A DNA stretch of 64,000 nucleotides, taken from IMG/VR virus record IMGVR_UViG_3300024221_000009, positions 1 to 64,000 of that record; one strand, written 5' to 3'. Shown here piece by piece: positions 3,655-22,030 of the stretch. How positions within the stretch are numbered: position 1 is the first letter of the stretch; each line of letters starts with the position of its first letter. Made by a program: the position numbers and the translations under genes. This DNA comes from a virus. The notes below the pieces were generated by a model, which was not told the origin of the DNA, searched no databases, and saw nothing but the letters and a program-made list of their open reading frames with translations.

Positions 3655-3907
3655 TTTAGAAGATTTTCCAGATTTTTCAGAAGAAAGCAACTGCAACCTT
3701 GAGAGTTTACAAGAAAATTCAAAGGTTACTATGATGAATATGATCTATAACGCGATTATGAGTAATGAAGATAGAGCAATAGGAAGTGATACTTCTCCAA
3801 GCGAAAAAGTAGAAGCTCTTAATAATATAATAGATTTTTTCGTAAGCTGTGAAGAATATGAAAAGTGTTCTAATATTAAAAAAATCATCGATAAAATACA
3901 ATGCTAA
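3647..3907 (+). CDS. Small acidic protein with UVR-like C-terminal motif (paralogue 2)
   Basis: This 86-residue protein starts acidic ([20 protein letters not shown]) and ends with [20 protein letters not shown], the same EEYEKC hairpin seen in the products starting at 2400 and 4212. It overlaps the DnaJ-like gene by 8 bases at its start and bS21 by 7 bases at its end, so all three are translated as a coupled unit. The function is unknown. Coupling with a co-chaperone and a ribosomal protein makes a role in protein or ribosome handling worth testing, but that is inference. Confidence 0.7.
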
Positions 3908-4089
3908 AGATAGAGGTTAAAAAAGGAAATATCGAACAAGCTCTTAAATCTTATAAATATAAGGTAAACAGAACTAAGCAAAGACAAGCAATCAACGAAA
4001 AGAAAGAATATACAAAACCATCTGTCACCAAACGCAGAAAAATTCAAAAAGCAAAGTATATTCAAAAGAAATCTGAAGACAATTCTTAG
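3901..4089 (+). CDS. rpsU: Ribosomal protein bS21 homologue
   Basis: This 62-residue, very basic protein has the full bS21 pattern. An N-terminal strand ([10 protein letters not shown]) is followed by the helix IEQALKSYKYKVNRT, then KKEYTKPSVTKRRKIQKAKY. The 'YTKPSVTKRRKIQKAKYIQK' part is the form typical of Bacteroidota bS21 rather than the Proteobacterial one. bS21 sits on the 30S platform near the 3' end of 16S rRNA and affects initiation. In Bacteroidota it helps hide the anti-Shine-Dalgarno sequence. A Tyr at 53 falls where, from memory, the host protein has the Tyr that contacts this region. Phage bS21 genes are known from metagenomes and are thought to replace the host copy. It overlaps the preceding gene by 7 bases. 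Confidence 0.9.
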   Translation: MLKIEVKKGNIEQALKSYKYKVNRTKQRQAINEKKEYTKPSVTKRRKIQKAKYIQKKSEDNS

Positions 4090-4131
4090 CAGCTTTAGAT
4101 TATAATATCATTATATTTTTTTTACTGGATT

Positions 4132-4152
4132 GGAACGTTTCTCAACCGTTCC
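4132..4152 (+). other. Small hairpin GGAACG/CGTTCC in the bS21-4212 gap
   Basis: A 6-bp perfect inverted repeat (GGAACG at 4132-4137, CGTTCC at 4147-4152) has a 9-base loop and lies in the 122-base gap after bS21. No T-tract follows on the + strand, so a simple terminator is unlikely. TATATATAAAAAG follows directly, a possible late promoter, so this may be an operator or a 3'-end processing stem. Confidence 0.35.
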
Positions 4153-4211
4153 GGGTATATATAAAAAGTAAAGTATTACATAATACATTACGTTAAAAAC
4201 ATTAACAAGAA

Positions 4212-4469
4212 ATGAAAGATATATTAGGAGAAGATAGAGACTCTTTAATGAGATCTTCTTATTATACCATTACTAGAAATTTTACAAAGACCGTGAATAG
4301 GTTTATTGTATTTAAAGAAGGTAATGACATTATTGAAATACCACATGGTATCGGGCAAAGATCTGATTTCATAGACATTCTTGTTGAATACTTCGAAAAA
4401 CTTGAAGAATATGAAAAGTGTGATAAGCTAATGAAATTAAGAGAACTTGTTATGATGGCAGGTAACTAA
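4212..4469 (+). CDS. Small protein with UVR-like C-terminal motif (paralogue 3)
   Basis: This 85-residue protein has a predicted N-terminal beta-rich part (YYTITRNFTKTVNRFIVFKE) and a C-terminal hairpin YFEKLEEYEKCDKLMKLREL. The latter matches those of the products starting at 2400 and 3647. The N-terminal halves of the three differ, so the shared unit is the C-terminal 25-30 residues. The gene ends 14 bases before phoH. The function is unknown. Confidence 0.7.
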   Translation: MKDILGEDRDSLMRSSYYTITRNFTKTVNRFIVFKEGNDIIEIPHGIGQRSDFIDILVEYFEKLEEYEKCDKLMKLRELVMMAGN

Positions 4470-4483
4470 AAATAAAATAAAAT

Positions 4484-5188
4484 ATGAGCAATAATTCTGA
4501 CAATAAAAATAGTAGGGTAAATAGAAACAAAATAAATGTTAAACCTGAAAATATCAGAGTGCAATTAAGACAATCACAACAAAAATACGTTCAAAAAATA
4601 TTAGAGAACGACATAACATTCTGCCAAGGGCCAGCAGGAACTTCAAAAACATTCACGGCCTGTTATGCTGCATTAAAGCTATTTGCAGATAAAAAAATTA
4701 AAAACATAATTCTTTGTAAACCAATACAAGAAGCTGGTGAAAAATTAGGATTTTTACCAGGGGATGTTAGCGATAAAATAGATCCATACATGCAATCTTA
4801 TATAACTAATCTAAATAAGATTATAGGACACGCAACAACAGAACAATTAGTAGAATCTGAAATTATACAATTTAGACCAATGGCCTTTATGAGAGGAGAT
4901 ACGTTTGACGATTCTTTAATGATTTTAGATGAAGCCCAGAACGCGACCTTTAAGCAGTTAATGTTATTCGTTACGAGAATGGGTAAAGGATCTAAGGTTA
5001 TTGTTACTGGTGATGTTAGTCAATATGATATTGCAAAAAACAATATAGGTTTAGAAAAATTCACTGACTTGATGGAAGGTATTAAAGGTATTGGAAATCA
5101 TATTTTCACAGAAAAAGATATAGTACGTGCAAAAATATTAAAGGACGTTGTAAAGAGATACGACAAGTGGAAATTAGAAAATGAGTAG
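4484..5188 (+). CDS. phoH: PhoH-like ATPase
   Basis: This 234-residue P-loop protein has Walker A GPAGTSKT (49-56), Walker B LMILDEAQN (D149, E150) and the PhoH signatures KPIQEAGEKLGFLPGD and VTGDVSQYD. PhoH proteins are ATPases/helicase-like proteins linked to RNA metabolism, and phoH is a common auxiliary gene in marine phages, where its role is unsettled. The length fits the short phage form without an N-terminal PIN domain. The first ~25 residues (SNNSDNKNSRVNRNK) look disordered. Neighbours include bS21, the DnaJ-like protein and RNase HII, so it sits in a group concerned with RNA and protein handling. Confidence 0.93.
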   Translation: MSNNSDNKNSRVNRNKINVKPENIRVQLRQSQQKYVQKILENDITFCQGPAGTSKTFTACYAALKLFADKKIKNIILCKPIQEAGEKLGFLPGDVSDKIDPYMQSYITNLNKIIGHATTEQLVESEIIQFRPMAFMRGDTFDDSLMILDEAQNATFKQLMLFVTRMGKGSKVIVTGDVSQYDIAKNNIGLEKFTDLMEGIKGIGNHIFTEKDIVRAKILKDVVKRYDKWKLENE

Positions 5189-5199
5189 AAACAAATGAT

Positions 5200-5227
5200 A
5201 AATCTTTAGTATAATACCTAAAGGTTT
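5200..5227 (+). promoter_or_regulatory. Hairpin with TATAATAC loop before RNase HII
   Basis: AAATCTTTAG (5200-5209) pairs with CTAAAGGTTT (5218-5227) around the loop TATAATAC, a 10-bp stem with one G-T wobble. It ends 4 bases before the RNase HII start. It could be a terminator or regulatory stem for the phoH transcript, or an operator overlapping a -10-like TATAAT. The sequence does not decide between them. Confidence 0.4.
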
Positions 5228-5231
5228 TAAT

Positions 5232-5870
5232 ATGTCAACACAAATTTTACTTAAAGGTTCTTATAATAACGACTCCAGTATTTTAGAGGTAGGAATCGAC
5301 GAAGCAGGTAGAGGAGCACTTGCAGGACCAGTCACAGTTTCTGCAGTTATAATGCCACATGGATTTTCACATCCTTTAATTAAAGATTCTAAATTACTTA
5401 ATGAGTCTCAGCGCAAAGAAGCTAGAGAAATAGTTATAGAAACAGCTATAGCGTATTCAGTTGTACATATTGATATTAATCAAATAGAAAATACAAATAT
5501 TCTTAGAGCAACTTTAAAAGGAATGAACGACTCTTTATTTGAATTAAATAAAAATTCAAATGATTTTGATTTTATATTAGTAGATGGCGATCAATTCCAC
5601 GGATATGAAGGTATACCATTTAAAACAATAGTGGGTGGAGATAATAAATATACATCAATCGCTGCAGCATCAATATTGGCTAAAACCGGAAGAGATGCAT
5701 TAATGAAAAAACTTAGCGAAATAGAAGAGTTCGAACAGTATGGTTGGAATTCAAATAAAGGATATGGAACAAAACAACATATTACTGCGATCAAAGAAGG
5801 AGGACCAACAGAACATCACAGGCCTAGTTTTATTTCTCATATATTAACAACCACAGGACAATTATTCTAA
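5232..5870 (+). CDS. rnhB: Ribonuclease HII
   Basis: This 212-residue protein carries the RNase HII signature GIDEAGRGALAGP (D23, E24), the third acidic residue in ILVDGD (D118) and the fourth in AAASILAKTGRD (D155). The family GY-T-x-x-H motif is also present (KGYGTKQHI). It cleaves RNA in RNA-DNA hybrids, including single embedded ribonucleotides. In this phage it probably removes Okazaki primers, as T4 RNase H does with an unrelated fold. The length and all catalytic residues are normal for bacterial rnhB. The first ~15 residues are an extra N-terminal tail. Its stop overlaps the next start (TAATG). Confidence 0.95.
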   Translation: MSTQILLKGSYNNDSSILEVGIDEAGRGALAGPVTVSAVIMPHGFSHPLIKDSKLLNESQRKEAREIVIETAIAYSVVHIDINQIENTNILRATLKGMNDSLFELNKNSNDFDFILVDGDQFHGYEGIPFKTIVGGDNKYTSIAAASILAKTGRDALMKKLSEIEEFEQYGWNSNKGYGTKQHITAIKEGGPTEHHRPSFISHILTTTGQLF

Positions 5871-6214
5871 TGCGTAATTTAATTATCGGGACCCTTCTTT
5901 TTACATTAGGGCAATCATTGATTTGGATTCAAACAAACGGACAGTTTATTTGGCCATGGTTTAAGAAAAATCCATGGTTAATTAGTTTTGGTTTTGGAGG
6001 AATTATAAGTTATATTCTAATTAGAGCCACTGCGTTTGTTGCTTCATATTATGAAGGACTATTATGGCCAGGTAGATTTATAGGTTTTTCAACCGGTATT
6101 TTTATATTTACTTTTATGACTTATTATTTTATGAAAGAAGGAATAAATATTAAAACAGCTATTTCCTTAGTGTTAGCATTTGCTTTAATAAGTGTACAGC
6201 TTTTCTGGAAATAA
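5870..6214 (+). CDS. Hypothetical integral membrane protein
   Basis: This 114-residue protein has four hydrophobic stretches, at about residues 3-20, 36-55, 64-85 and 92-112. They are separated by short basic or polar loops (WFKKNPW, YYEGLLWPGR, MKEGINIK). This is a small four-helix inner-membrane protein with no cleavable signal peptide. It starts on the stop of RNase HII (TAATG). No family is recognised. Holin-like, superinfection-exclusion or transporter roles are possible, and nothing in the sequence chooses between them. Confidence 0.7.
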   Translation: MRNLIIGTLLFTLGQSLIWIQTNGQFIWPWFKKNPWLISFGFGGIISYILIRATAFVASYYEGLLWPGRFIGFSTGIFIFTFMTYYFMKEGINIKTAISLVLAFALISVQLFWK

Positions 6215-6241
6215 ATTGTTAATAACTTTTGAAAATAAATT

Positions 6242-6270
6242 CCCAAACATTTTTTTGTTTGGGTTTTTTT
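6242..6270 (+). terminator. Rho-independent terminator
   Basis: CCCAAAC (6242-6248) pairs with GTTTGGG (6257-6263), followed by seven T (6264-6270). It ends the transcript from the upstream cluster. The T-rich loop, ending TTTG at 6254-6257, also supplies the -33-like element of the promoter just downstream. Confidence 0.85.
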
Positions 6271-6294
6271 GTTTATATTAGTAGTATAATTAAA
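6250..6294 (+). promoter_or_regulatory. Bacteroidota-type promoter overlapping the terminator
   Basis: TTTTTTTG (6250-6257), a 16-bp spacer and TATATTAG (6274-6281) are followed by TAGTATAATTAAAA and the gene start at 6307. The upstream element lies inside the loop of the terminator hairpin, so terminator and promoter share bases. Confidence 0.6.
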
Positions 6295-6306
6295 ACAGAT
6301 AAAGTT

Positions 6307-6531
6307 ATGATTAGATCAAAAAAAACTAAATCCGAAATTGTAATCGACCTGACAGGTCCAGATGGAAATGCATTTGCCCTTATGGGTTATGCTAAAAGTT
6401 TTGGTAAGCAAGTTGGTATGAGTGAGTCTTATATCAAGGATATGTTAGATAGAATGATGAGTTCAGATTATGAAAACTTAATTAAGGTTTTTGATGATGA
6501 ATTTGGTTCTGTTGTAATTTTAGAAAGATAA
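6307..6531 (+). CDS. Hypothetical protein, 74 residues
   Basis: I place the start at ATG 6307. The frame is open back to a TTG at 6229, but that region holds the terminator and promoter. The product begins MIRSKKTKSEIVIDLTGPDG and continues with NAFALMGYAKSFGKQVGMSE. It is probably a small alpha/beta protein. Short proteins with a 'DLTGPDGNAF-LMG-A' pattern occur in many phages, but I know no function for them. It is transcribed from its own Bacteroidota-type promoter. Confidence 0.7.
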   Translation: MIRSKKTKSEIVIDLTGPDGNAFALMGYAKSFGKQVGMSESYIKDMLDRMMSSDYENLIKVFDDEFGSVVILER

Positions 6532-6552
6532 TTCGAAAAAAATGCATAAAAG

Positions 6553-6591
6553 TTTTTTTATCCCAACTATTATGCTTATATTTAACTATAA
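6553..6591 (+). promoter_or_regulatory. Bacteroidota-type promoter (T-tract / 17 bp / TATATTTA)
   Basis: A T7 tract (6553-6559), 17-bp spacer and TATATTTA (6577-6584) precede the start at 6608. GCATAA (6544-6549) and TTATGC (6570-6575) form an inverted repeat across the spacer. It is the same architecture as at 2345, 6250 and 22066. Confidence 0.55.
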
Positions 6592-6607
6592 CAAAAAAAC
6601 GTAAAAC

Positions 6608-7021
6608 ATGACAAATTTTAAATTCAATGCAAGTGAAATAGTTTGTAACGGAATTACAGGCGGAGCAGCACAGCTTTTAACTCAAGAAAATTATCAAACA
6701 TTATCAGCCTTTTTGAAAACACATTTTATGATGGCTTCAAAAAAACAAATCTTAGAGGAACTACAAGACTCTGATCAATTACAAGATAATTGGCATATTG
6801 GTTCAAGAGTAGAAGACAATGATAAGATTTTAACAAGAATGGCAAGCGGCTTATGGGACTATTCAATTAATATATTTAAAGGAGAAAAACACTTAGCTGA
6901 AATGTGGATGAACGCACAGGTAAACAACATGACAGCAAAAGATATTATTACAGTTTTAGAATCTGCTTTAATGGATTGTGCAACAGCAGATCACTGGTAT
7001 ACTTTTGAAAAAGAATATTAA
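6608..7021 (+). CDS. Hypothetical protein
   Basis: This 137-residue protein is mixed helical with no membrane segment or signal peptide. A Met-rich region (LKTHFMMASKKQILEEL) and a C-terminal helix (AKDIITVLESALMDCATADH) are its clearest features. It has its own Bacteroidota-type promoter, which suggests early expression. I do not recognise the family. Confidence 0.6.
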   Translation: MTNFKFNASEIVCNGITGGAAQLLTQENYQTLSAFLKTHFMMASKKQILEELQDSDQLQDNWHIGSRVEDNDKILTRMASGLWDYSINIFKGEKHLAEMWMNAQVNNMTAKDIITVLESALMDCATADHWYTFEKEY

Positions 7022-7026
7022 AAAAT

Positions 7027-7260
7027 ATGAAATTATCTATGGATGATCGAGTTAATAGGATTATTAACTCTGACAAAATAGTTTATTTAGAAGACATGAC
7101 TGTACATTCAGTAAACTCTGTAGAAACCGTAGGAAAAGATCTTCTTTTTGTTAACACAGGTTCAGGTCTATTATTTCAAGACACAGATGTAATGACACTC
7201 GAGGAAGCATGTGACGCAGAAAGATTCGTAAACAAAATAAAAAAACAATGTAAAATATAA
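7027..7260 (+). CDS. Hypothetical protein
   Basis: This 77-residue protein has an N-terminal helix (SMDDRVNRIINSD), a beta-rich core (VHSVNSVETVGKDLLFVNTG) and a C-terminal helix ending KKQCKI. It sits 5 bases after one gene and 3 before the UV endonuclease, so it is probably part of that transcription unit. The function is unknown. Confidence 0.6.
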   Translation: MKLSMDDRVNRIINSDKIVYLEDMTVHSVNSVETVGKDLLFVNTGSGLLFQDTDVMTLEEACDAERFVNKIKKQCKI

Positions 7261-7263
7261 TAT

Positions 7264-8187
7264 ATGGCACAAGTAAATTTAGGGTACTGTTGTATCAATC
7301 TCACATTACAAGAAAAAGAAGGTATCAAAATCGGTAGATCTATGATCAAGCGAACGTTTCAAGCAAAAGGCATCAAATACGCTGGTGAATTAGCTGAAGC
7401 AAATGTTCGTGATATGATTGAAATTATTAAATGGAATAAAAAGAAAGGTATCAATATCTATCGTATGTCTAGTTCTATGTTCCCTTGGATGAGTGAGTAT
7501 GAGCTAACTGATTTACCTAATTGGAAAACAATCAAAAACTTATTAAAAGGCGCAGGTACTCTTGCACAATCATATAATCAAAGAGTTGGTTTTCACCCAG
7601 GTCAGTTTTGTGTATTACCAAGCCCTACTCAAAAGGTTGTTGAAACTACAATACGAGAATTAAATCAACATGCATTTATTATGGATACGATGGGACTACC
7701 TCAAAACCACACATATTCTATGAATATACATGTAGGTGGTTCATACGGCGATAAAGAATCTGCAAAGCAAAGATTTATAGATAACTTTAAAAGACTTGGT
7801 GATTCTGCAAAAGCAAGACTTGTTCTAGAAAACGATGACAAGCCAGCACAGTATTCAGTTCAAGATCTATACGAGATATATGAACAAATAGGTACTCCAA
7901 TTACTTTTGATTATCACCACCATAGATGCTATGAAGATCCAATGCCTGAAGAAGATGCTCTTCGACTTGCTTCAAAAACTTGGCCAAAAGGAATTCGACA
8001 ACTATGTCACTATTCATCATCCAAAAAGCTACATGAAGACGCTAGTGTTATTATCAGAGCACATGCTGATTATGTTTATGAAAAGATAGAAACATATAAC
8101 ATGGATCTAGATATTGAACTAGAAGTAAAAGCAAAAGAACTTGCATTAATCAAATATCAAAAAGACTACGAATTAGTCCTAAGTTAA
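7264..8187 (+). CDS. uvdE: UvdE-type UV damage endonuclease
   Basis: This 307-residue protein fits the UVDE family throughout. It begins with LGYCCINL near the N-terminus, then YRMSSSMFPWMSEY, GFHPGQFCVLPSP, NIHVGGSYGDKE, RLVLENDDK, TFDYHHHR and IRAHADYVYEKI. The His, Glu and Asp residues in these segments are the metal ligands of the TIM-barrel enzyme. UvdE nicks DNA 5' of UV photoproducts and other lesions, starting an excision repair pathway independent of UvrABC. The length is normal. In a phage it plausibly repairs UV damage in virion DNA after entry; T4 uses DenV for this. It lies in a run of small genes behind the promoter at 6553. Confidence 0.92.
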   Translation: MAQVNLGYCCINLTLQEKEGIKIGRSMIKRTFQAKGIKYAGELAEANVRDMIEIIKWNKKKGINIYRMSSSMFPWMSEYELTDLPNWKTIKNLLKGAGTLAQSYNQRVGFHPGQFCVLPSPTQKVVETTIRELNQHAFIMDTMGLPQNHTYSMNIHVGGSYGDKESAKQRFIDNFKRLGDSAKARLVLENDDKPAQYSVQDLYEIYEQIGTPITFDYHHHRCYEDPMPEEDALRLASKTWPKGIRQLCHYSSSKKLHEDASVIIRAHADYVYEKIETYNMDLDIELEVKAKELALIKYQKDYELVLS

Positions 8188-8202
8188 ATGAATATATAAC
8201 CT

Positions 8203-8742
8203 ATGAAGTTTATAAAAACATTTGAAGATTGGAACAATGTTTCACCTGAATTAAAAGCTCACATCGAAGAAGGATTAGATCTTACTAATTCATTCTTTCG
8301 TTTAGGAAGTGATGCATATTCTAAATTGTTTGAAGAAGTAAAACAATACTGGGATAAAAACAATATAATATTAAAAGGTCCTTCAGGATGGATGGCTAAA
8401 AATTTAGACGTAGGTACTTCAGCATTATATACTCCACGTGGCGGTAAAACTATTAAAGTTAAATTAGACTCTCCAGAAAGAGGAGGTAAAAAGAAATTTA
8501 TAGTATATAGAGACGGAGGAAGAAAAGATAAAGAAGGAAACATTCTTGCAAAGAAAGTAGAATGGGGAGATCCTAATCTTTCTGTAAAAAACGATGATCC
8601 TGGAAAGGCTGCTAGTTTTTGGGCAAGACATGGATGTGATAAAGCAGCTAAAATGGATCCTATGAAAGCAGGATTCTGGGCATGTTATGGGCCTACATTA
8701 TTTGGAAAACAACTTGGCTTAAAAAGTGATCAACCATGGTAG
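8203..8742 (+). CDS. Phage protein with DUF5872-like C-terminus and capsid-targeting-like N-terminus
   Basis: This 179-residue protein opens MKFIKTFEDWN, similar in style to the T4 capsid-targeting peptide and to other genes of this window. Its C-terminal third (KVEWGDPNLSVKNDDPGKAA, then SFWARHGCDKAAKMDPMKAG and FWACYG) matches a motif common in phage structural or capsid-core proteins: 'WGD-N---K--DP--R-SF-ARH-CD--KDK---GYW-C'. Two Cys and one His in this block could bind metal. It may be an internal head protein. The function is otherwise unknown. It overlaps the next gene by 7 bases. Confidence 0.6.
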   Translation: MKFIKTFEDWNNVSPELKAHIEEGLDLTNSFFRLGSDAYSKLFEEVKQYWDKNNIILKGPSGWMAKNLDVGTSALYTPRGGKTIKVKLDSPERGGKKKFIVYRDGGRKDKEGNILAKKVEWGDPNLSVKNDDPGKAASFWARHGCDKAAKMDPMKAGFWACYGPTLFGKQLGLKSDQPW

Positions 8743-9086
8743 AAAAAGATTGCAAATGTAAATCATGTAAATGTAAAGACATGACAATGGATGAAATGAT
8801 ATCTATGATAGATGATCAGACATTACCTTTTACAGAGACAATCGTTTCAGAAAATGAAATCATAAGAGAATTTAAAGAAAAATATCCAGACCACTTATAT
8901 AAATGGCACAGTGATCCTGAAGATAGACTTATTAAAGTATTAGAAGACTCCGATTGGAAATTTCAATATGACAATGAGATACCAACTCCATTACTTACAG
9001 GGATTGATATTAAAATACCGAAAGGAACAATTCATAGAATTATACCAGGTAAATCTCAACTAAAAATACTTATAAAAAAGAATTAA
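8736..9086 (+). CDS. Small cupin-like phage protein with Cys-rich N-terminus
   Basis: This 116-residue protein starts MVEKDCKCKSCKCKD, four Cys in alternating positions that could bind a metal ion. The rest follows a pattern found in small T4-like phage proteins: YKWHSDPEDRLIKVLEDSDW, FQYDNEIPTPLLTG, then IDIKIPKGTIHRIIPGKSQL. The 'IPKGTIHRII' end resembles the last strands of a cupin barrel. No catalytic function can be assigned. It overlaps its upstream neighbour by 7 bases, suggesting coupled translation. Confidence 0.6.
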   Translation: MVEKDCKCKSCKCKDMTMDEMISMIDDQTLPFTETIVSENEIIREFKEKYPDHLYKWHSDPEDRLIKVLEDSDWKFQYDNEIPTPLLTGIDIKIPKGTIHRIIPGKSQLKILIKKN

Positions 9087-9104
9087 AAATCAACAATATA
9101 ATAT

Positions 9105-9120
9105 AGATATATAATCTAAT
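9105..9120 (+). promoter_or_regulatory. Possible late promoter (AGATATATAATCTAAT)
   Basis: AGATATATAATCTAAT lies 28 bases before the start of the Glu-rich core-protein gene. It is nearly identical to the motif at 36158 and close to those at 216 and 60659. Its position upstream of putative virion genes fits a T4-like late promoter. Confidence 0.5.
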
Positions 9121-9148
9121 AATAAAAAACAATAATTTTTAACATATT

Positions 9149-9871
9149 ATGGCAAAATTAAAATCATTTGAACAGTTTTTATCTGAAATGGATAGAACTG
9201 AAGAAATTCAACAAGACGTTGTTGAATTAGGAGCTCCAGATGAAAAAGGGTCTGAAGAAGCACAAGCTAAAGCAGAAACTGTACAATCTGAAAGAGACGA
9301 AGTTAAGGAATTAACAGAAACTGAAGAAACTGATGTTAAAGAAGGTAACGCCTTTGGAGATGCAGTTAGAAAAGCTAAAGAAGCTGGTGAGAAAGAATTC
9401 GAATTCGAAGGAGAAACTTACAAAGTAGAAGAATCTGAAGAGGTTGAAGCTGAAGAGGTTGAAGAAGAAGCAACTGAAGAAGAAGCTGTTGAAGAATCTG
9501 AAGAGGTTGAAGCTGAAGAGGTTGAAGAAGAAGCAACTGAAGAAGAAGCTGTTGAAGAATCTGAAGAGGTTGAAGCTGAAGAAGAATCACACAAATCAGT
9601 ATCTGAAATGTTAACAGAAGTTTATGAGTCTTGTAAAAACGAAGCTAAAGCTTACGAAGACGATGCACATGACGAACACACTGTAGAATCTTATATGAAA
9701 GAAAACGCTGCATTAATCGCTGCGTTAGCTGCAAAATCTTTAAAAGAAATGAAAGAAGAATACGCAGTAGAAGCTTATGAAGCTGCTTGTAATTCTATGA
9801 TAGAGTCTTACACGAATAAAATGAATGAAATGAAAGAATCTGATAGCGCACATGACGCTGAAGAAGCTTAA
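9149..9871 (+). CDS. Glu-rich putative capsid-core/internal protein
   Basis: This 240-residue, extremely acidic protein opens MAKLKSFEQFLSEMD, like a T4 capsid-targeting sequence (K-x-x-E-F-x-x-E). Residues about 60-92 (DVKEGNAFGDAVRKAKEAGE, then KEFEFEGETYKVEESEEV) match a segment of the 806-residue protein at 54678. Residues about 95-146 are 21-residue tandem repeats rich in Glu/Val. The C-terminal ~90 residues are helical and Ala/Glu-rich. T4 prohead core proteins (gp22, gp67, gp68) are likewise acidic and helical, so a scaffold/core role is likely. A late-type promoter precedes it and a strong terminator follows. Confidence 0.65.
   Translation: MAKLKSFEQFLSEMDRTEEIQQDVVELGAPDEKGSEEAQAKAETVQSERDEVKELTETEETDVKEGNAFGDAVRKAKEAGEKEFEFEGETYKVEESEEVEAEEVEEEATEEEAVEESEEVEAEEVEEEATEEEAVEESEEVEAEEESHKSVSEMLTEVYESCKNEAKAYEDDAHDEHTVESYMKENAALIAALAAKSLKEMKEEYAVEAYEAACNSMIESYTNKMNEMKESDSAHDAEEA
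9431..9586 (+). repeat. 63-bp in-frame tandem repeat
   Basis: A 63-bp unit beginning GAATCTGAAGAGGTTGAAGC starts at 9431 and 9494, with a partial third copy from 9557 to about 9586. Each unit adds 21 Glu-rich residues to the capsid-core candidate. Near-identity of the copies suggests recent expansion, so copy number may vary between relatives. Confidence 0.9.
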
Positions 9872-9897
9872 TAACATATAATTTACTCTCTAATAAA

Positions 9898-9922
9898 GCC
9901 TGGATATTTCCAGGCTTTTTTT
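9898..9922 (+). terminator. Rho-independent terminator
   Basis: GCCTGGA (9898-9904) pairs with TCCAGGC (9909-9915) around a 4-base loop, followed by seven T (9916-9922). It is a classic terminator after the Glu-rich core-protein gene. Confidence 0.92.
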
Positions 9923-9941
9923 ATTTAGAAACTATTCTACG

Positions 9942-9966
9942 TTTATTGATATAATATATCAATAAA
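9942..9966 (+). promoter_or_regulatory. Perfect 10-bp dyad before dCMP deaminase
   Basis: TTTATTGATA (9942-9951) and TATCAATAAA (9957-9966) are perfect inverted repeats around TAATA. The dyad contains a -10-like GATATAATATA and ends 10 bases before the dCMP deaminase start. An operator overlapping a promoter is the simplest reading. Confidence 0.5.
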
Positions 9967-9976
9967 ACAAATAAAC

Positions 9977-10599: not shown

Positions 10600-10600
10600 A

Positions 10601-14651: not shown

Positions 14652-15140
14652 ATGAAATCAATAGATAATAAAAAAGTAAAAAATAATAAACTCAGATTAA
14701 CTGAGCCTTGCGTTCTATTTAATGAAAATGTTAAAACCATGACAGTATACACTGTACATGCTGATGAAGTTGGTAGAATTGATTTAATTGCCGATAGAGT
14801 ATATAACAATACAACATACTCTGAACAAATATTAAAATTCAATAACATTTCTAATCCATTTTCAATTAATGAAGGAGATGTTCTTAATATACCATATACT
14901 GATCTTCCATTTAAGAATTGGAAAACTATTAAACCACAAGATAAATCAGATAGCTCACATCCTATTAAAGATCAATTTATGGATAGTAAGAGATTAACTG
15001 TTAAAGATCAGAACAGAATTGAATATTTAAAACAAAAGGCATCACAAAAATTAAACGGATCTAAAGAAATACTTCCACCTAATATCCTTAAAGATGGAGA
15101 AAAGAATATGGATATAGAAGGAGGCACAATTACTATTTAA
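14652..15140 (+). CDS. LysM-like baseplate protein (gp53-like candidate)
   Basis: Residues about 30-80 (MTVYTVHADEVGRIDLIADR, then TYSEQILKFNNISNPFSI and NEGDVLNIP) have the LysM pattern: a first strand, 'D-IA-R-Y', 'I---N-I-NP--I--GD-L-IP'. T4-like baseplate wedge protein gp53 and tail assembly proteins of other contractile systems contain LysM-like domains. These hold the baseplate together or contact peptidoglycan. The C-terminal half is Lys-rich and probably disordered. Flanked by a hub-type and a gp27-like gene, it is most likely a baseplate component. Confidence 0.6.
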   Translation: MKSIDNKKVKNNKLRLTEPCVLFNENVKTMTVYTVHADEVGRIDLIADRVYNNTTYSEQILKFNNISNPFSINEGDVLNIPYTDLPFKNWKTIKPQDKSDSSHPIKDQFMDSKRLTVKDQNRIEYLKQKASQKLNGSKEILPPNILKDGEKNMDIEGGTITI

Positions 15141-15141
15141 T

Positions 15142-16983
15142 ATGGCAGTACAGGGTAAAATTTTAACTAAATTAGAACCAACCATAGAACTTGATAAGCT
15201 TAAATTTAAATCTTATAAAGAGTCTGAGGGAGATAATCCTGGAGATAACAATACATCTCAAGAATTAGGTGTTGAGTTTCCTTTAATATTTGTTAATGGT
15301 TATAGGTTTAATAAACCAGACATTAAGCATTTTGACATATCTTTAGCGGAGTTTTCTCCGACAATAAACATAACTATAATAGATTCAGAATCCTTATTTT
15401 CAGCTGATTCATACCCAAGAGATGGTGATGTAATTAACGTAAGAATAGCTTCTAGAGCAAAAGACATATATAAGGATATTAGAATGGATTTTGATATTGT
15501 TGATGTGATATCACCTCCTAAATCTGCAGAAGCAAATAATATGGGAGGAGCTATTTATACGTTAAGTGGTAGGATGAAAATACCAGGATTATATGCAGAA
15601 CAATGTAAATCATACGGAGTAGGAACTACATTAGATCATTTAGAAAAAATAACCACTGAACTTAAATTAGGTTTAGCTTCAAATGTAGATTTAACCGACG
15701 ATTCAATGAATTTAATAACGCCGTATGAGCCAATTAAAGACACTATCGAGGATTTAGTAAAACACTCTTACGTCAATGAAGATTCATTTGTGACATGTTG
15801 TGTAGATCCTTATTATTATTTTAATTTCGTAGATTTAAATTCTATATTAAATGCAGATGAAGACTTTGAAGATGCTATTTCTTCTTTTGACGAAAATATA
15901 AATGACACATTAGGACCTGAAGCTACTAATGAAACTAATTTAATAGATAAATCCCCATTAGCAATAACATCTTTTTCAGGAGCAGCCGGCACTAATGTAC
16001 ATATTTCAAAATATGCAATACAAAACAATTCTGGGGAAATAGTAAAAAAGAACGGATATAAAAGAGTTCTTCAATTTTTTGAGAATGATTCTGAGGAAAC
16101 TGGATTAGTAAACTTTGATGTTGAGCCTTTATCTTCTAATAATCTTAAAGACATACATGAGCCTCTTAAAGGACGTAGGGACGAGGAGAGATACAAACAA
16201 GAAATAAAATATAAGTATGTTGGCAGAAGACATAGTGATGCAGAAACATCGAATACACACTTAAATTACAACTTTGCAGGATTACATAATGTTCAAAATC
16301 TTCAAGAGCTTGATAAGGTTTTTTTAGAAGTTGAATTATCAACATGGAATCCTGCTATATATAGATATCAAAAATTGCCAGTTGCAATATACTCAGAAAC
16401 TCCTGATAAAACTGCGGCCGATGCTGCTTTAAAGACCAAGAAAGAAGAATTAGGATTTGAGGCTAAAGAAAAAGAGGAAATAGCCGACGGTAGTAGAAAT
16501 GAAAACGATGGTGTTGGGGTAATTGATGAATTCTTAAGTGGGTTTTATATTGTTGGAGAAATAAGTTATGTATATACAAGGAAAACAGGCAAAACTGTAC
16601 AAAAGATGAAACTTCTCAGAAGAGAATGGCCAAGTCGCATAAATAATATACCTGAAAATATTTCAGAACCTGCACCTGAGCCAGCGCCTCAACCAGCGCC
16701 TCAACCGGCTCCTGAACCAACCCCAGAACCGGCACCAGAGCCTACACCGGAACCTACACCGGAACCTACGCCAGAGCCAACGCCACACTTATATGAAATC
16801 TTAATAACTGGTAATACGTTGCAAATAGTTGTATTTGACGCAAGTGGAGCTGAAGTATATAGAGGTGAACCTAGAATTAGTGTAAACCCAATACTAGATG
16901 AGGGTGGAGTTGTAAATGAAGCTAAAGCAGCTTTAGATCCATCGAAACAAGATCCTAACGTCCAAAACATGCGAAAAAAATAA
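15142..16983 (+). CDS. gp27-like baseplate hub protein with (PEP) repeat linker
   Basis: The 613-residue product has the build of a T4 gp27/Mu gp44/late-control-D hub protein. It starts with a tube-like domain (FPLIFVNGYRFNKPDIKHFD; SPTINITIIDSESLFS), continues with DGDVINVRIASRAKDIYKDI, and has a later domain ending in FYIVGEISYVYTRKTGKTVQ. The hub trimer would connect the tube to the spike. Residues about 508-550 are a run of Pro/Glu/Ala/Thr repeats (PAPEPTPEP units) joining a small C-terminal beta domain (LYEILITGNTLQIVVFDASG). Hub proteins do not normally carry this extension. The gp5-like spike lies two genes downstream. Confidence 0.7.
   Translation: MAVQGKILTKLEPTIELDKLKFKSYKESEGDNPGDNNTSQELGVEFPLIFVNGYRFNKPDIKHFDISLAEFSPTINITIIDSESLFSADSYPRDGDVINVRIASRAKDIYKDIRMDFDIVDVISPPKSAEANNMGGAIYTLSGRMKIPGLYAEQCKSYGVGTTLDHLEKITTELKLGLASNVDLTDDSMNLITPYEPIKDTIEDLVKHSYVNEDSFVTCCVDPYYYFNFVDLNSILNADEDFEDAISSFDENINDTLGPEATNETNLIDKSPLAITSFSGAAGTNVHISKYAIQNNSGEIVKKNGYKRVLQFFENDSEETGLVNFDVEPLSSNNLKDIHEPLKGRRDEERYKQEIKYKYVGRRHSDAETSNTHLNYNFAGLHNVQNLQELDKVFLEVELSTWNPAIYRYQKLPVAIYSETPDKTAADAALKTKKEELGFEAKEKEEIADGSRNENDGVGVIDEFLSGFYIVGEISYVYTRKTGKTVQKMKLLRREWPSRINNIPENISEPAPEPAPQPAPQPAPEPTPEPAPEPTPEPTPEPTPEPTPHLYEILITGNTLQIVVFDASGAEVYRGEPRISVNPILDEGGVVNEAKAALDPSKQDPNVQNMRKK
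16665..16790 (+). repeat. Pro/Glu repeat region in the hub gene
   Basis: About 14 short units of the type CCnGAACCn encode alternating PAPE, PAPQ and PTPE. The last units (CCGGAACCTACA) are nearly identical, so copy number could change by slippage. The region encodes an extended, stiff linker. Confidence 0.85.
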
Positions 16984-16996
16984 GATAAATAGTTAT

Positions 16997-18187
16997 ATGT
17001 CAGACTTTAAGAGAATATCAGATTTTAAGAAAAGTAAGTTATCTAGATACCCGTATCAAGATCCAACATACTTGTCTTTTGTTATGCTTTTTGATTTTAC
17101 AGATCAAATAAATTCACCACTATTATCTTTAAGTGCTGAAAATTATCTAGCTAAATTGGCTAATGCCGATTCAACTGAATCTGAGTTTTATAAAGAAAGA
17201 TTAGAAAATTTACAAAATTTTAAAAAGGCTTTAAAAACTATCAATAATGAAATGCCATGGTACTGGCAAAGTCTTTCTGGTTTAGAAAGAACTCAACAGT
17301 ATAATCCTGAAAATGCGTATATGGGAGGAGACGATGCAAGAATTGAAATTACAACATTAGAATCTTTAAATCTACCTGTAGCTGGATTAATGCATCTTTA
17401 TAGAAAAGCTGTATTTGATGAAAGAAAATGGAGTTATATTCTTCCTAGCAATTTACGTAAATTTAGAATTTATATTTATGTAAGTGAAGTTAGAAAAATT
17501 AAAGATAATGCAAAGCCTAAAATCGGTGGTTTAAACAAAGATGCTCTTAGAGGGTTTCCAGATAATTTTAAACCAACTTTAAGTATAGAAGATAAAAATA
17601 AAGAAATATCTGGAGTTTCGGGTAGACCTTATTTTATGATATCATTAAAGGATTGTGAATTTGATATAAAAGAAGGTGTTGAGATATTTACAGATTTACA
17701 AAAATCTCCAGAAGCACCTGCAACTGGTAAAATTGCATTTAATTATGAAGTGTTATACAATGTAGAATCTAGAGTTTTAAATGGTATAATAACAAGTGAA
17801 TTTGGTTCTGATAATTTAGCACCATCTCCTGATGGAGAAGGAGTTTCACCAAATACTGTTGGTGATTGGTTATTAGATAAAGCGAAAGAAAAAGGACAGG
17901 CGTTTGTCGATAGAGCAGTTGGTGATTTGAAAAACCAAGGTTTAGAAAAAATGCAAGAATTAAAAGCGGCTGCAAAGGACGCGACTATTGGTAGATTAGA
18001 TAGAAGTATTAATAATATTTATAAAGAATTTATAACTGGTGTAGATAATGCAACTGGCGATATAACTAACAATATTAAAGAATCTATAGGCGAAAATATT
18101 CATGGATCTGCCGCAGGTGCAGATACTGTATTAGATGCTCTTACTACTGCGTCTAGAAACTCTTTAGGAAGCGTATACGATGAATAG
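16997..18187 (+). CDS. Tail-tube-like / baseplate structural protein
   Basis: This 396-residue protein has a large N-terminal part (FKRISDFKKSKLSRYPYQDP; MPWYWQSLSGLERTQQYNPE). Strands typical of a tube fold follow (LRKFRIYIYVSEVRKIKD; PYFMISLKDCEFDIKEGVEI; GKIAFNYEVLYNVESRVLNG). A helical C-terminal ~130 residues (DKAKEKGQAFVDRAVGDLKN) may be a flexible tail. It lies between hub and spike and overlaps the spike gene by 8 bases. A tube-initiator/baseplate role like T4 gp54 is likely but not proven. Confidence 0.55.
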   Translation: MSDFKRISDFKKSKLSRYPYQDPTYLSFVMLFDFTDQINSPLLSLSAENYLAKLANADSTESEFYKERLENLQNFKKALKTINNEMPWYWQSLSGLERTQQYNPENAYMGGDDARIEITTLESLNLPVAGLMHLYRKAVFDERKWSYILPSNLRKFRIYIYVSEVRKIKDNAKPKIGGLNKDALRGFPDNFKPTLSIEDKNKEISGVSGRPYFMISLKDCEFDIKEGVEIFTDLQKSPEAPATGKIAFNYEVLYNVESRVLNGIITSEFGSDNLAPSPDGEGVSPNTVGDWLLDKAKEKGQAFVDRAVGDLKNQGLEKMQELKAAAKDATIGRLDRSINNIYKEFITGVDNATGDITNNIKESIGENIHGSAAGADTVLDALTTASRNSLGSVYDE

Positions 18188-18896
18188 CGAAGAACTTGAA
18201 AAAGATAATATTAGAGAAACTCACTGGTTAGGTGCAGTTGTCGATAACACAGATCCTAAAAATTTAGGTAGGTGTAGAATCAAGGTGTATGGTAAATTTG
18301 ATAACTTGCCAGACGATGCTATTCCATGGGCAACTCCTATGAATAGGGATTTACCAGGTTCACATGCAACCCCTAGAGTTGGCGATATAGTTGCAGTTAG
18401 ATTTGATAACGGAAACATATATCATCCAGAATATTGGTTTCACATTAATCAAAACAAAGAATTAAAAGAAGATATTTTAGAATCTTCATCAGCACCACAG
18501 GACGTTATCAGTTTAGTGTATGACGCTGAAAGAAACTTAAGAATATATCATTCACAAGACGACGGGTTAGTAATCACAAGAGGAAGTGGAGCTAAAGAAA
18601 GACCACTTATTCAAATAGACGAAGATGGTATGATAAAGATTTCAACAGATGAAAAGATATTCTTAGATTCTGGAAATATATTTTTATCAAATGAAGGAGA
18701 AGCTGGGGCTGACGAAAGCGAACCAGCTGTTAGAGGAGTATCTTTAGAAACTTGGTTAAATACTTTTTTAGATGATTATAAGGCACATACTCATCCAACT
18801 GGTGTAGGACCTTCTGGGCCTCCATTAGCGCCGACGCCTATTTTTATAAATCAAGCAAAGAACAATCATATTAACTATCAACAAAAAAATAAATAA
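18180..18896 (+). CDS. gp5/gpV-like baseplate spike protein
   Basis: The N-terminal ~100 residues form the OB-fold of spike proteins (HWLGAVVDNTDPKNLGRCRI; PWATPMNRDLPGSHATPRVG; VAVRFDNGNIYHPEYWFHIN). A short beta-prism stretch follows (IQIDEDGMIKISTDEKIFLD). The C-terminus (YKAHTHPTGVGPSGPP) has the HxH motif found at the tips of P2 gpV-type spikes, where His residues bind iron. The T4 gp5 lysozyme domain is absent, so wall digestion must come from elsewhere. At 238 residues it is the size of gpV. It forms the membrane-piercing tip under the gp27-like hub. Confidence 0.82.
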   Translation: MNSEELEKDNIRETHWLGAVVDNTDPKNLGRCRIKVYGKFDNLPDDAIPWATPMNRDLPGSHATPRVGDIVAVRFDNGNIYHPEYWFHINQNKELKEDILESSSAPQDVISLVYDAERNLRIYHSQDDGLVITRGSGAKERPLIQIDEDGMIKISTDEKIFLDSGNIFLSNEGEAGADESEPAVRGVSLETWLNTFLDDYKAHTHPTGVGPSGPPLAPTPIFINQAKNNHINYQQKNK

Positions 18897-18898
18897 TT

Positions 18899-20710
18899 AT
18901 GCCTGCACAGTGGCCTAAATTTATTAAAAACGTATCTGACAAAATGTCAGGTCAAGGGTATGATTCAGTTGAAGAGTGGGCTCTATTTTTATCTAATGAA
19001 TATTTTAACGCTGTTAAAACTTCACAATCTCCCTATGGACAAACACATGTATCTGGTCAAAAACCTATTTTAGACACAGGGTTTGTAGCAGCCTTCAATA
19101 AAATATTTAACGAAGAAACTGTATCTTTTGAAGATAAATTTGAATTACCTAAATTTGCAGATTTTAACGAACCTACGGTAGTGCCTGATTATACTAATAA
19201 TACAACTTGTGAAATAGAAGATTGTATTAATCAAAATAGAGATTTAGAAATAACATTTATTGATTATAGAGAAAATAGCAAACCTGAAAAAACACATACG
19301 TATGATAAATTTCAATTTTTCTCTTTGTTTGAATCTTTATGCCCTGATCCTTTTGTTGATGAAAAAGATTTTACTGGCGGAATTAATATTGAAGAATTAA
19401 TAAGTGATCAATTAGAAAAAGATCAAGAGTTAATCGATGCAGGATCTCCTGATTTATTCGCGGTTTTAACTATATATGGTTTTAACGAATCTGGTAAATA
19501 TAAATTTTTATATTCTATAAACGAAGAAGATCAACCTATAGAACGAGCAAATGATGGCGTATTTACGACTCGTATATCTTCTACACCTGGAGATTATAAA
19601 TATATTTTTAAAGAAGTATACGATGAAGATCTTAATTTAATTAAAGTAATTAACAAAGAAGTGACAATTACTATTTCAGAAAAAGGAGAACCTGTTATTG
19701 TAAACACGCTAGAAGACGAGTCGGACCAGCAAGATACAACTCCAAAGATATTAGATATATTAAACACGGATTCTCTAGACCTTAGTAATAAGGATGTTAA
19801 GGATTATTTATTAAACTCTTTAACTGAGCGTGTTTTATTACAAAATGACGAAACTGAAAACTTTTATAAATGGGTTAAGCGCTTTAACAGCTTCAGTGGC
19901 GTTCATTATCCAGGGTGGGTACGAACTATATTAAAAGATTTAGAAGATAAAATAAAAGATTTAGCAGATGTTGTTAAAGATAAAGTTATAGCAGAAGCTC
20001 GCGCAAATGGAGATCTAAGAGTAGCAAGCCAATTCAGCAATATAATATACAATAGGTTTGATATACAAGAAATTATTGAAAACTCTAAAATAAATCAATA
20101 CACATGGCAGGTTAGTGAGAAATTAGATATTGATTTACCTAAATGGCTTGATCCTACCGCAATCATCGCATTTACTTATGATAAAGTATACGATATGCCT
20201 TTTGCTGGAGGACAAACCACGGTTGTTGAAGGACTAAGAAAATCAGCTAAATTAGATAAATATGATGAAGAACAAGATAAATGGTTTGATAGAGTAACTG
20301 CTTGTGTAAGTAATAAAGATATAGATTTAGCAGAAGATCCTGCTGAAGAAGACGGATATGATGATTTAGCTAAATCTATTATAGACTATTGGAAAAGCAC
20401 AACAATTCAGCCTTTGAAAGCAAGCCCACCTGTGCCGCCATGTAATACGCCGGCACCTCTAGGAGGAAAATATGTTCCTATTTATTATGGTAACCAAGCT
20501 GGATTAGCAAATAAATTAAGGAGAGCGTTTAACACTGGTAAAAAGTTTAAACTAAAAGGGATGCACAGACCTCCTTCAGTAGCAGTTGCAACTGCAGTCG
20601 CTGCTGCGTGTAGTATGCACTTATTAGAATTAAAATTCATATATTTAGGAGGAATTATAACACCAACTTCTCCTATACCTATGATCGGGTTTGTTCCCGT
20701 AGTGTTCTAG
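18899..20710 (+). CDS. Virion structural protein, tail region
   Basis: This 603-residue protein has no family I can name. Its N-terminus (WPKFIKNVSDKMSGQGYDSV, EEWALFLSNEYFNAVK) is helical, and the middle (DLFAVLTIYGFNESGKYKFL) looks like an immunoglobulin-type beta domain. The C-terminal ~90 residues are Ala- and Pro-rich and hydrophobic (SVAVATAVAAACSMHLLELK, then YLGGIITPTSPIPMIGFVP), which could insert in a membrane or bury in the baseplate. Its place after the spike gene supports a baseplate or tail function. Confidence 0.55.
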   Translation: MPAQWPKFIKNVSDKMSGQGYDSVEEWALFLSNEYFNAVKTSQSPYGQTHVSGQKPILDTGFVAAFNKIFNEETVSFEDKFELPKFADFNEPTVVPDYTNNTTCEIEDCINQNRDLEITFIDYRENSKPEKTHTYDKFQFFSLFESLCPDPFVDEKDFTGGINIEELISDQLEKDQELIDAGSPDLFAVLTIYGFNESGKYKFLYSINEEDQPIERANDGVFTTRISSTPGDYKYIFKEVYDEDLNLIKVINKEVTITISEKGEPVIVNTLEDESDQQDTTPKILDILNTDSLDLSNKDVKDYLLNSLTERVLLQNDETENFYKWVKRFNSFSGVHYPGWVRTILKDLEDKIKDLADVVKDKVIAEARANGDLRVASQFSNIIYNRFDIQEIIENSKINQYTWQVSEKLDIDLPKWLDPTAIIAFTYDKVYDMPFAGGQTTVVEGLRKSAKLDKYDEEQDKWFDRVTACVSNKDIDLAEDPAEEDGYDDLAKSIIDYWKSTTIQPLKASPPVPPCNTPAPLGGKYVPIYYGNQAGLANKLRRAFNTGKKFKLKGMHRPPSVAVATAVAAACSMHLLELKFIYLGGIITPTSPIPMIGFVPVVF

Positions 20711-20761
20711 AAAAAACAAATATATAAAAAGAATTATTATTAACCACTTAAATTAAAAAAA

Positions 20762-22030
20762 ATGTCACAAGACGTTAAACAAAAAAGAAAAAGACTTTCA
20801 GGAACAATGCAACCAGAAGTTGCTACTGAAAAAAAAGAAGATCGCGTTTTAGCTAATGCTAACGTACCGCCAGAAGAGTTTAATTGGGCTGAGCATGAAG
20901 CTGGATGTCCATCACAAACTAGAAAGGCAAACACGAATTTAAAAAACATTCCACATGGCTGGAAAGTTTTATGTAAGGATCCTTACGCACAAGATTTCTT
21001 AAACATTTTAATGGGCCACGAGGCAGAAACACCTAATCAACAAATGAGTATTGAGGCTGGTGAGATCTACACTGGTACTATTTATAGTGTAAATACTGAA
21101 TGGGTATCTGTTGATATTGGGTATAGAGAAATGGTGTACGTAAATTACTTAAAAGAAGAAGCAAGTATTAGAGAATCTTTTATCGTAGGAAATGAAGTTA
21201 AGATTCAGGTTTTACAAATGGGAGGAGCTAGAGGATTTGTTTTAGGATCTATTTCAGCTGGAGTTAAGACTGCCGTTGCTGCTGAGATAATGGAATCTAT
21301 TAAAGACGGAAACACTGCATATATTGGTAAAGTAGTTAATATGATACCAGGCGGAGGTTATATTGTAAATGTACAAGGTATAGATTGTTTTATGCCAGGT
21401 TCTTTGGCTGGAATTAATAAACTTCCAGATTTTGAATCTATAGTAGGAACTGAGATGTATGTAGTACCTGTTAGTTTTTCAGAAAAGAGAGGAACTATTG
21501 TAGTATCTCATAGAGAATATTTAAAAGCCATGATTCCTTCTAAGATTTCAGACCTTAAAGAAAATCTTACACAAGATTTATCAGGTAATGTTACAGGATC
21601 TGCGAAATATGGAGTATTTGTTGAATTTAACGAGTGTTTAACTGGTATGATTCATGTTAATGATTTAACACCTGAATTATTAAAGGCCCACAAAGCTAGA
21701 GAGATACAACCTGGTGATGCAATCAATTTCAAAATAAAAGAAATTGTAAGTGAAACTAAAATCATTCTAACTCAATTAGATGCTAAACCTGTTGTTGATT
21801 TATGGGAAGGTATTGAAGATCGAATTAAAGCGCCTACCCAAGTTATTGGTAAAGTTAAAGCTGTTAAAGATTATGGAATCTTTGTAGACATTGAAAAAGG
21901 AGTTGCAGGTTTATTACATATTTCAGAACTTGAAGGTATTGATGTAGAAGATATCAAACCAGGTAACGATATTAATGTTAAGGTTACAAGAATAGATGCT
22001 TCGACAAGAAAAATCTTTTTAAAACTATAA
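20762..22030 (+). CDS. Ribosomal protein S1 homologue (four S1 domains)
   Basis: This 422-residue protein has four consecutive S1-type OB domains. They lie at about 98-170 (YTGTIYSVNTEWVSVDIGYR), 184-260 (YIGKVVNMIPGGGYIVNVQG), 270-342 (GNVTGSAKYGVFVEFNECLT) and 356-422 (GKVKAVKDYGIFVDIEKGVA, GLLHISEL). The ~95-residue N-terminal part is basic/charged and unlike S1. bS1 binds A/U-rich leaders and brings mRNA to the 30S subunit; host S1 in Bacteroidota has more domains. The phage protein could recruit phage mRNAs or compete with host S1. It stands alone in the tail-gene block with an A-rich leader and a strong terminator after it. Confidence 0.87.
   Translation: MSQDVKQKRKRLSGTMQPEVATEKKEDRVLANANVPPEEFNWAEHEAGCPSQTRKANTNLKNIPHGWKVLCKDPYAQDFLNILMGHEAETPNQQMSIEAGEIYTGTIYSVNTEWVSVDIGYREMVYVNYLKEEASIRESFIVGNEVKIQVLQMGGARGFVLGSISAGVKTAVAAEIMESIKDGNTAYIGKVVNMIPGGGYIVNVQGIDCFMPGSLAGINKLPDFESIVGTEMYVVPVSFSEKRGTIVVSHREYLKAMIPSKISDLKENLTQDLSGNVTGSAKYGVFVEFNECLTGMIHVNDLTPELLKAHKAREIQPGDAINFKIKEIVSETKIILTQLDAKPVVDLWEGIEDRIKAPTQVIGKVKAVKDYGIFVDIEKGVAGLLHISELEGIDVEDIKPGNDINVKVTRIDASTRKIFLKL

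Follow-up and report, generated by a model that had tools for sequence, protein, structure and literature searches.

The stretch of phage DNA analysed here encodes two proteins of the small ribosomal subunit, bS21 and a shortened homologue of bS1, and this suggests that the phage refits the ribosome of its host. The window is the whole stretch of 64,000 nucleotides and corresponds to bases 1-64000 of the 91,386-bp virus record IMGVR_UViG_3300024221_000009, itself a fragment. bS21 (62 amino acids (aa), 3901..4089) and the S1 protein (422 aa, 20762..22030) are both on the plus strand. Both proteins most likely work on the platform of the 30S subunit, and we lean towards the reading that they serve as replacements for host parts on this mRNA platform. 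They are separable parts; in the clade of the window S1 is the constant part and bS21 the optional part. Both genes are already known from giant phages, and the build of the genes and the control of their starts look new here.

The phage S1 and bS21 proteins

The S1 protein carries near its N-terminus the residues Phe40, Asn41 and Trp42 (20879..20887), an F[ND]W motif common to phage S1 and the cellular bS1 of Bacteroidota. Between this motif and the first OB fold the phage proteins have a conserved stretch ending in YAQ[DE][LF], which reads YAQDF in the window. A helix is predicted for residues 76–89 after Tyr75 (20987..21028) and is placed like the N-terminal helix by which bS1 docks on uS2. 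In the AlphaFold model, made with a 34-row alignment, the helix precedes four OB folds: OB1 of residues 102–163 (21065..21250), OB2 of residues 187–249 (21320..21508), OB3 of residues 273–337 (21578..21772) and OB4 of residues 359–421 (21836..22024), all on the plus strand. PF00575 matches the protein in three stretches. An earlier sequence-only reading of this DNA had counted four S1 domains, and the count is right, because the model shows four OB folds. The protein stops after OB4, while cellular bS1 continues to OB5 and OB6.

The top NCBIfam models are those of ribosomal S1 (NF004952, E 5.5e-49, residues 82–420 against 36–371 of 580), and the match to these models is a single continuous stretch over domains 1–4 (D1–D4). 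Residues 94–418 align to E. coli bS1. The best Foldseek matches are bS1 chains in 30S complexes (9gut, E 2.2e-26; 9guv, E 2.3e-22). VIA-align pairs model residues 78–422 with bS1 residues 1–346 of 9guv (Z 14.3); the root mean square deviation (rmsd) of 11.9 over 322 residues is what flexibly linked domains would give. A nuclease or termination factor, the identity that would have spoken against the sequence-only reading, is not what was found. Models of RNase R and PNPase fit single-domain stretches with far weaker scores, and structures of NusA, Tex and RNase R align mostly to single S1 domains, with a few RNase R and NusA rows spanning more at high rmsd.

In E. coli, Phe5, Gln7 and Phe9 of the bS1 helix and Lys43 of OB1 touch uS2, and bS21 links OB1 of bS1 to 16S rRNA (PMC10123108). 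The phage protein has Arg122 at the position of Lys43, which faces the zinc pocket of uS2. Lysine or arginine occupies this position in all 34 aligned phage S1 proteins, and Tyr75, Ala76 and Gln77 are present in 32, 34 and 32 of them. The uS2-docking helix and the Lys43-type residue thus appear to be kept in phage S1. With docking residues placed as in E. coli, S1 would sit right beside bS21 on the 30S platform. Cellular bS1 was found in 13 of 13 Bacteroidota genomes, and 12 of the proteins were aligned with phage S1; the alignments and the S1 tree set aside host L319 (a spurious longest open reading frame, ORF) and L021, L058 and L092 (incomplete or short S1). Against the cellular proteins phage S1 is without OB5, OB6 and the tail and so falls short of six OB folds, and OB5–OB6 is missing from every phage S1 in both the 13-row and the 34-row alignment. 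By sequence and model, the protein is filed as a bS1-derived D1–D4 homologue and not as bS1 proper. Pairwise ratios of nonsynonymous to synonymous substitution rates (dN/dS) are 0.08–0.19, indicating purifying selection. The gene is located among baseplate and tail genes, and this position suggests late expression.

bS21 is of the Bacteroidota type, as the sequence-only reading had it, and passes both family cut-offs (PF01165, E 5.1e-11, 42.6 bits against 27; TIGR00030 of NCBIfam, 31 bits against 28.95). Its nearest solved chain is F. johnsoniae bS21 (7jil, E 1.1e-8). Tyr53 of the window protein corresponds to F. johnsoniae Tyr54, the Bacteroidota residue that stacks on A1534 and redirects the 16S tail (PMC9976891). 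This tyrosine is invariant in ten aligned phage bS21 proteins, and the position is aromatic in 32 of 32 resolved loci with both genes (paired loci) and, by a loose pattern, in 78 of 80 viral bS21 loci. In the alignment, differences from F. johnsoniae bS21 fall mainly in residues 20 to 38. Pairwise dN/dS is 0.06–0.30 where computable, again indicating purifying selection. In a bS21 tree of 133 rows, 57 of 61 phage proteins lie on one side of a branch (94/85), and three huge-phage rows and one other row lie with cells; the tree has 64 columns and weak support, and identical bS21 proteins and those missed by the pattern were left out. The best PHROGs matches were uninformative (E 0.034 for bS21, 0.12 for S1).

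Leaders and start signals

The leaders of the phage genes are A-rich and without Shine-Dalgarno (SD) sequences, and this part of the sequence-only reading holds. Only 1 of 83 plus-strand genes (at least 80 aa, 91-kb record) shows SD pairing of -8 kcal/mol or stronger, compared with 0.8% in shuffles. Across the 83 genes A makes up 0.61–0.69 of positions -14 to -10, while its overall frequency is 0.39. This A-box of the phage (0.66) resembles the signal at -12/-13 of F. johnsoniae, a site that Baez et al. 2019 place near domain 4 of bS1 (PMC6847099). In stretches of three host genomes strong SD pairing occurs in 0/69, 0/27 and 0/28 genes, and A at -14 to -10 has frequencies of 0.41, 0.41 and 0.54. 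Part of the difference between phage and hosts comes from base composition, half of A+T being 0.35 in the phage versus 0.31–0.33 in the hosts. Phages with both genes have 0.61 and 0.66 at these positions, and S1-only phages 0.63. All these frequencies are rough, because start sites were called mechanically and several loci are near-copies. No distinct phage leader class was found among phages with both genes, S1-only phages and the three hosts, and hence none for an exchanged bS21 to favour. The comparison shows that the phage shares the initiation dialect of its host, perhaps more strongly, with no sign of bS21 changing it. The single strong SD-like leader (GAAGGAGG, 15112-15142) lies about 17 nt from the ATG of a 613-aa gene and is probably due to chance.

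The bS21 gene itself differs from most cellular copies in its start signal. F. johnsoniae bS21 is autoregulated, and many Flavobacteriales rpsU genes carry an extended SD used by ribosomes lacking bS21 (PMC9976891). Among the best 80 of 503 cellular bS21 places, SD pairing is -8 kcal/mol or stronger in 66 leaders and -17 or stronger in 64. The viral scans covered the best 80 of at least 539 confirmed bS21 places and of at least 498 confirmed S1 places. None of the 80 viral-contig bS21 leaders (42 unique) and none of the 32 resolved paired loci (15 unique leaders) reaches -8 kcal/mol. These counts hold for the nearest relatives, since they describe the best 80, and near-copies are frequent among the contigs. 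The bS21 ATG overlaps the 3' end of a preceding small ORF in 31 of 32 paired loci; in 28 of the 32 the stop of that ORF comes four bases downstream of the A of this ATG (ATGN-stop). L306, where the pattern was not found, was left out, and L288 showed no upstream ORF. In the window the ATG overlaps the stop (ATGCTAA) of an 86-aa ORF (3647..3907, plus strand), the presumed partner in translational coupling. An SD-less leader with start-stop coupling fits translation by ordinary ribosomes, outside the host loop. As far as the literature was searched, a phage bS21 without the autoregulatory strong SD and the start-stop coupling in the clade of the window are new.

A second chromosomal bS21 type without SD (MIKIEIKEGENIERALKRYKRKHRN...) occurs in Flavobacteriaceae, at loci L136, L157, L161, L163, L169, L173, L183, L185, L187, L201, L345–L347 and L349–L351. 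By eye it adjoins AsmA-like, DUF2797-like or sigma-factor-like genes, and no other bS21 was found in two Winogradskyella genomes or in Aurantibacter. Cells with only the SD-less bS21 may lack SD-based autoregulation of bS21. That these copies are prophage genes is unsupported; the neighbours in 11 SD-less loci look chromosomal by eye.

Co-occurrence, known systems and possible roles

The order of the two genes is strictly conserved. bS21 is present in 10 of 19 close S1 contigs and in 23 of 40 larger and more distant ones, the longer of 69 new S1 contigs. In all 33 contigs with both genes it lies 15.1–22.8 kb upstream of S1 on the same strand. Of the 26 S1 contigs without bS21, 19 end before or within this interval, so contig ends may explain the missing gene there; the other seven extend at least 32 kb upstream and are not explained in this way. 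The expected site was inspected in four of the seven (L324 to L327), where DnaJ, the two small ORFs and PhoH stand in their usual order and bS21 alone is missing. bS21 may lie elsewhere in these seven incomplete genomes.

In the S1 tree (58 rows, S1 collapsed at 0.95 similarity, cellular rows from Bacteroidota S1 only), 16 viral-contig rows have both genes and four are without bS21 (L072, L089, L097 and L121). The S1-only lineages, L121 and the L089 group, branch from within carriers of both genes, and bS21 must have changed at least twice on this tree. It says little on origin because its branches are long (8.97 between cellular and phage proteins, with the huge-phage rows flagged as long). 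S1 was found in 0 of 20 bS21 contigs while a positive control had it; these contigs are fragments and mostly say little, since just four exceed 100 kb (380, 317, 127 and 109 kb). An earlier set of bS21 records, four of them re-examined among the 20, had S1 in 0 of 11; one of these (L035) has a bS21 identical to that of the window and ends before the expected S1 site. The genes thus co-occur in relatives in a conserved order, and the lack of co-occurrence that would have spoken against the sequence-only reading did not come about. As a fixed system the pair is rejected, each gene being found without the other.

By tblastn, relatives of both window proteins are present in the huge phages LR756501, LR756504, LR745206 and LR756502 (634–735 kb), and LR756503 has the same length and positions as LR756501. 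LR756500 has S1 without bS21, and no bS21 was found at E 0.01 in 15 Lak records with an S1 match. With four deposited genomes carrying both, the pair is not unique to the clade of the window, and its occurrence in one genome is not the novelty that it was taken for. The huge-phage records other than that of 735,411 bases presumably come from the 2020 study of Al-Shayeb et al. The 735,411-base record fits the 735-kb genome of that study, which describes huge phages with rpS1 and rpS21, proposes hijacking of initiation and notes that S1 carriers seldom have SD sequences (PMC7162821). The link between S1 and missing SD is therefore also not new, and the window shares both traits with those phages. 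Compared with the huge phages, the window is a T4-like fragment whose bS21 is without an N-terminal extension and whose S1 is D1–D4 with docking residues retained. bS21 and S1 are on opposite strands in LR745206 and LR756502 and 113–141 kb apart in the other two, whereas the clade of the window keeps order and strand. Stop-start coupling and rpsU autoregulation do not figure in the accessible part of the 2020 account (PMC7162821).

Other known phages resemble the window in part. The freshwater Bacteroidetes phages of Chen et al. 2022 are myoviruses with a bS21 nearest to Flavobacteriia and an aromatic residue at the Tyr54 position; they are described as having no other ribosomal protein genes, and bS21 is opposite to the structural-gene strand (PMC9723584). 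The window adds S1, and its bS21, unlike theirs, is in a DnaJ-ORF-bS21-ORF-PhoH cluster. McNutt et al. 2023 describe the masking pocket with Tyr54 of F. johnsoniae bS21, discuss phage bS21 and propose that autoregulation could counter it, whereas the SD-less phage bS21 found here suggests the opposite direction (PMC9976891). The Microcystis jumbo phage PhiMa05 also has bS1; it has six ribosomal proteins, none of them bS21, and the paper gives them a Vampirovibrio-like origin (PMC13157829). S1 of two aligned Prevotella Lak phages shares the F[ND]W and YAQ[DE] motifs at the N-terminus but differs from the window protein in having three OB domains and no Lys43 position. Mizuno et al. 2019 treat S1 domains as ambiguous and leave them aside; they report that bS21 and bL12 of viral origin can be incorporated into ribosomes (PMC6375957). 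In a literature search on phage bS21 or rpsU with SD or S1, which covered titles, abstract openings and mostly open-access text, no account of SD loss, stop-start coupling or the bS21 gap was found.

If the two proteins are replacement parts, S1 would use its N-terminal helix and OB1 to dock on uS2, leaving OB2–OB4 to contact the A-rich box of the SD-less leaders (-14 to -10). Phage bS21 with its Tyr54 would replace host bS21, and the anti-SD would stay masked. Being SD-less and start-stop coupled, phage bS21 would be made on ordinary bS21-replete ribosomes. The net effect would be phage-type platform proteins during translation of phage genes. A bolder version, which we consider doubtful, is that the phage turns the bS21 autoregulation of the host against it. 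Flavobacterial rpsU would be read through its strong SD, best used by bS21-free ribosomes; phage bS21 would fill vacant platforms, mask the anti-SD and switch off host rpsU, and new and recycled 30S subunits would then take phage bS21. Phage bS1(D1–D4), docked on uS2 beside it, would read the A-box of phage leaders, and the change to phage-type platforms would be self-locking.

Several observations weigh against the replacement of platform parts, a reading built on comparisons of sequences, leaders and a model. The NF004952 score of the S1 protein, 166.9 bits, is below the equivalog cut-off of 524, and no cut-off is reached by the 25 best of the 33 NCBIfam models that match it. AlphaFold confidence is moderate overall (predicted local distance difference test (pLDDT) 79.3, predicted template modelling score (pTM) 0.52), and a phage-specific insert precedes OB1. 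Residue 79 of the window protein is Phe and so matches E. coli Phe9, yet only six of the 34 aligned phage proteins have Phe there and 25 have Leu. bS21 is missing from 7 of 40 informative S1 contigs, and S1-only lineages have the same leader type. A strong SD is lacking at 14 of the 80 cellular bS21 loci, and an SD-less copy is present in seven of eight genomes and is the sole bS21 found in three; the eight are not random, five, among them the three with a sole copy, having been picked for an SD-less bS21, and one copy (L352) was not resolved. Some genomes with an SD-less bS21 have an SD copy too, among them two of three genomes picked blind to SD. Lack of an SD is therefore no hallmark of phages, because cells also carry SD-less bS21 genes. 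In the 735-kb phage LR756501, where SD-like leaders precede 7 of 74 genes, bS21 has a strong SD, AAAGGAGG (-12.1 kcal/mol; L051:9979-10000), so its bS21 could come preferentially from bS21-free ribosomes; in the three remaining huge phages that carry the pair, pairing of the bS21 leader is weaker than -8 kcal/mol.

The low equivalog score and the insert, which is conserved, leave room for a non-ribosomal RNA-binding role. S1 might be a free RNA chaperone or regulator in mRNA protection or decay, with bS21 unrelated to it. The distance of 15–23 kb between genes that each occur alone would fit, as would the two Lak proteins without OB4 and the Lys43 position, and host S1 is known to serve T4 RegB and Q-beta replicase (PMC13157829). 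We consider this role unlikely, though worth keeping in mind: the clade of the window keeps the uS2-docking helix and Lys/Arg43, five aligned huge-phage S1 proteins have Lys there, and the best fold matches are bS1 bound to 30S. The proteins could also be buffering copies that top up limiting host bS1 and bS21 during late synthesis and leave the choice of mRNA unchanged. The leader type is the same with and without bS21, host leaders are SD-less and A-rich as well, and with Tyr54 kept masking should stay unchanged. Such buffering is rather improbable, since phage S1 and bS21 are far from the cellular copies and window bS21 differs from that of F. johnsoniae mainly in residues 20–38; Chen et al. 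2022 find that the N-terminal helix of phage bS21 diverges and link it to mRNA (PMC9723584). The absence of OB5–OB6 in all phage S1 proteins of both alignments would suit an inhibitor, a D1–D4 protein that ousts full-length host bS1 and mainly cripples host translation. However, such a protein would harm the phage as well, whose own leaders have this A-box too, and E. coli S1 without its last domains still supports translation, so that inhibition is very improbable.

Of the ribosome reprogramming first proposed from the sequence, the ribosomal-type proteins, their docking features and the conserved order have stood; the novelty of the pair, its unity as one full system (bS21 absent from 7/40 S1 contigs, S1 from 20/20 bS21 contigs, mostly short fragments) and a favoured leader class have not. 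If the proteins do enter the 30S platform, the phages would be a natural test system for SD-less translation in Bacteroidota, whose initiation signal is still debated, with three natural genotypes: both genes, S1 only with a precise bS21 gap, and bS21 only. Entry would also give a sharp prediction on host rpsU and would make the phage an example of a virus that evades a ribosomal-protein feedback loop and puts it to use.

Gene neighbourhood and virus

Upstream of the 86-aa ORF, and overlapping it, is DnaJ with a J domain and DnaJ_C (2860..3654). Downstream of bS21 are an 85-aa ORF (4212..4469), retained even where bS21 is missing, and a PhoH-like ATPase (4484..5188); all are on the plus strand. 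DnaJ, the 85-aa ORF and PhoH accompany bS21 in 33/33 paired loci and the 86-aa ORF in 32/33. DnaJ is also close to bS21 in LR745206 and LR756502. A role of DnaJ as a dedicated bS21 exchange factor is weakened because S1-only genomes retain DnaJ and the small ORF without bS21. The two small ORFs flanking bS21 have no Pfam matches. Small ORFs at 2400-2681, 3647-3907 and 4212-4469 appear to be paralogues, with EEYEKC as a common C-terminal motif. The ORF at 4212 is 91–93% identical in close relatives whose bS21 is only 60–68% identical. The interval 4090-4211, 3' of bS21, is non-coding with a hairpin-like GGAACG...CGTTCC by eye, and a genome without bS21 keeps a gap with another hairpin-like stretch, also by eye.

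The record shows no end repeat by a simple check, and no tRNA genes were found in it; related contigs extend to 256 kb. On one strand lie 95 of its 101 low-overlap ORFs. It encodes Portal_T4 (portal gp20, E 3.1e-70), T4-gp15_tss (tail-sheath stabiliser gp15) and gp32, with further matches to UvsW_N (UvsW-like helicase), baseplate hub and wedge, RecA-like, DnaB and T4 beta-glucosyltransferase-like proteins. From its portal, gp32, tail and baseplate genes, the virus is a T4-like myovirus. The host is probably flavobacterial (Flavobacteriaceae), because the names at the 80 nearest of 503 cellular bS21 loci are almost all flavobacterial; the exceptions are Porphyromonas, a few labelled only Bacteroidetes or Flavobacteriales, and one metagenome-assembled genome labelled Limnohabitans. 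A family-B DNA polymerase is split over two ORFs (record 70132-71529 and 76009-77211), and both ribonucleotide reductase subunits sit between them. A UvdE-type UV endonuclease is encoded at 7264-8187 of the window (E 1e-62).

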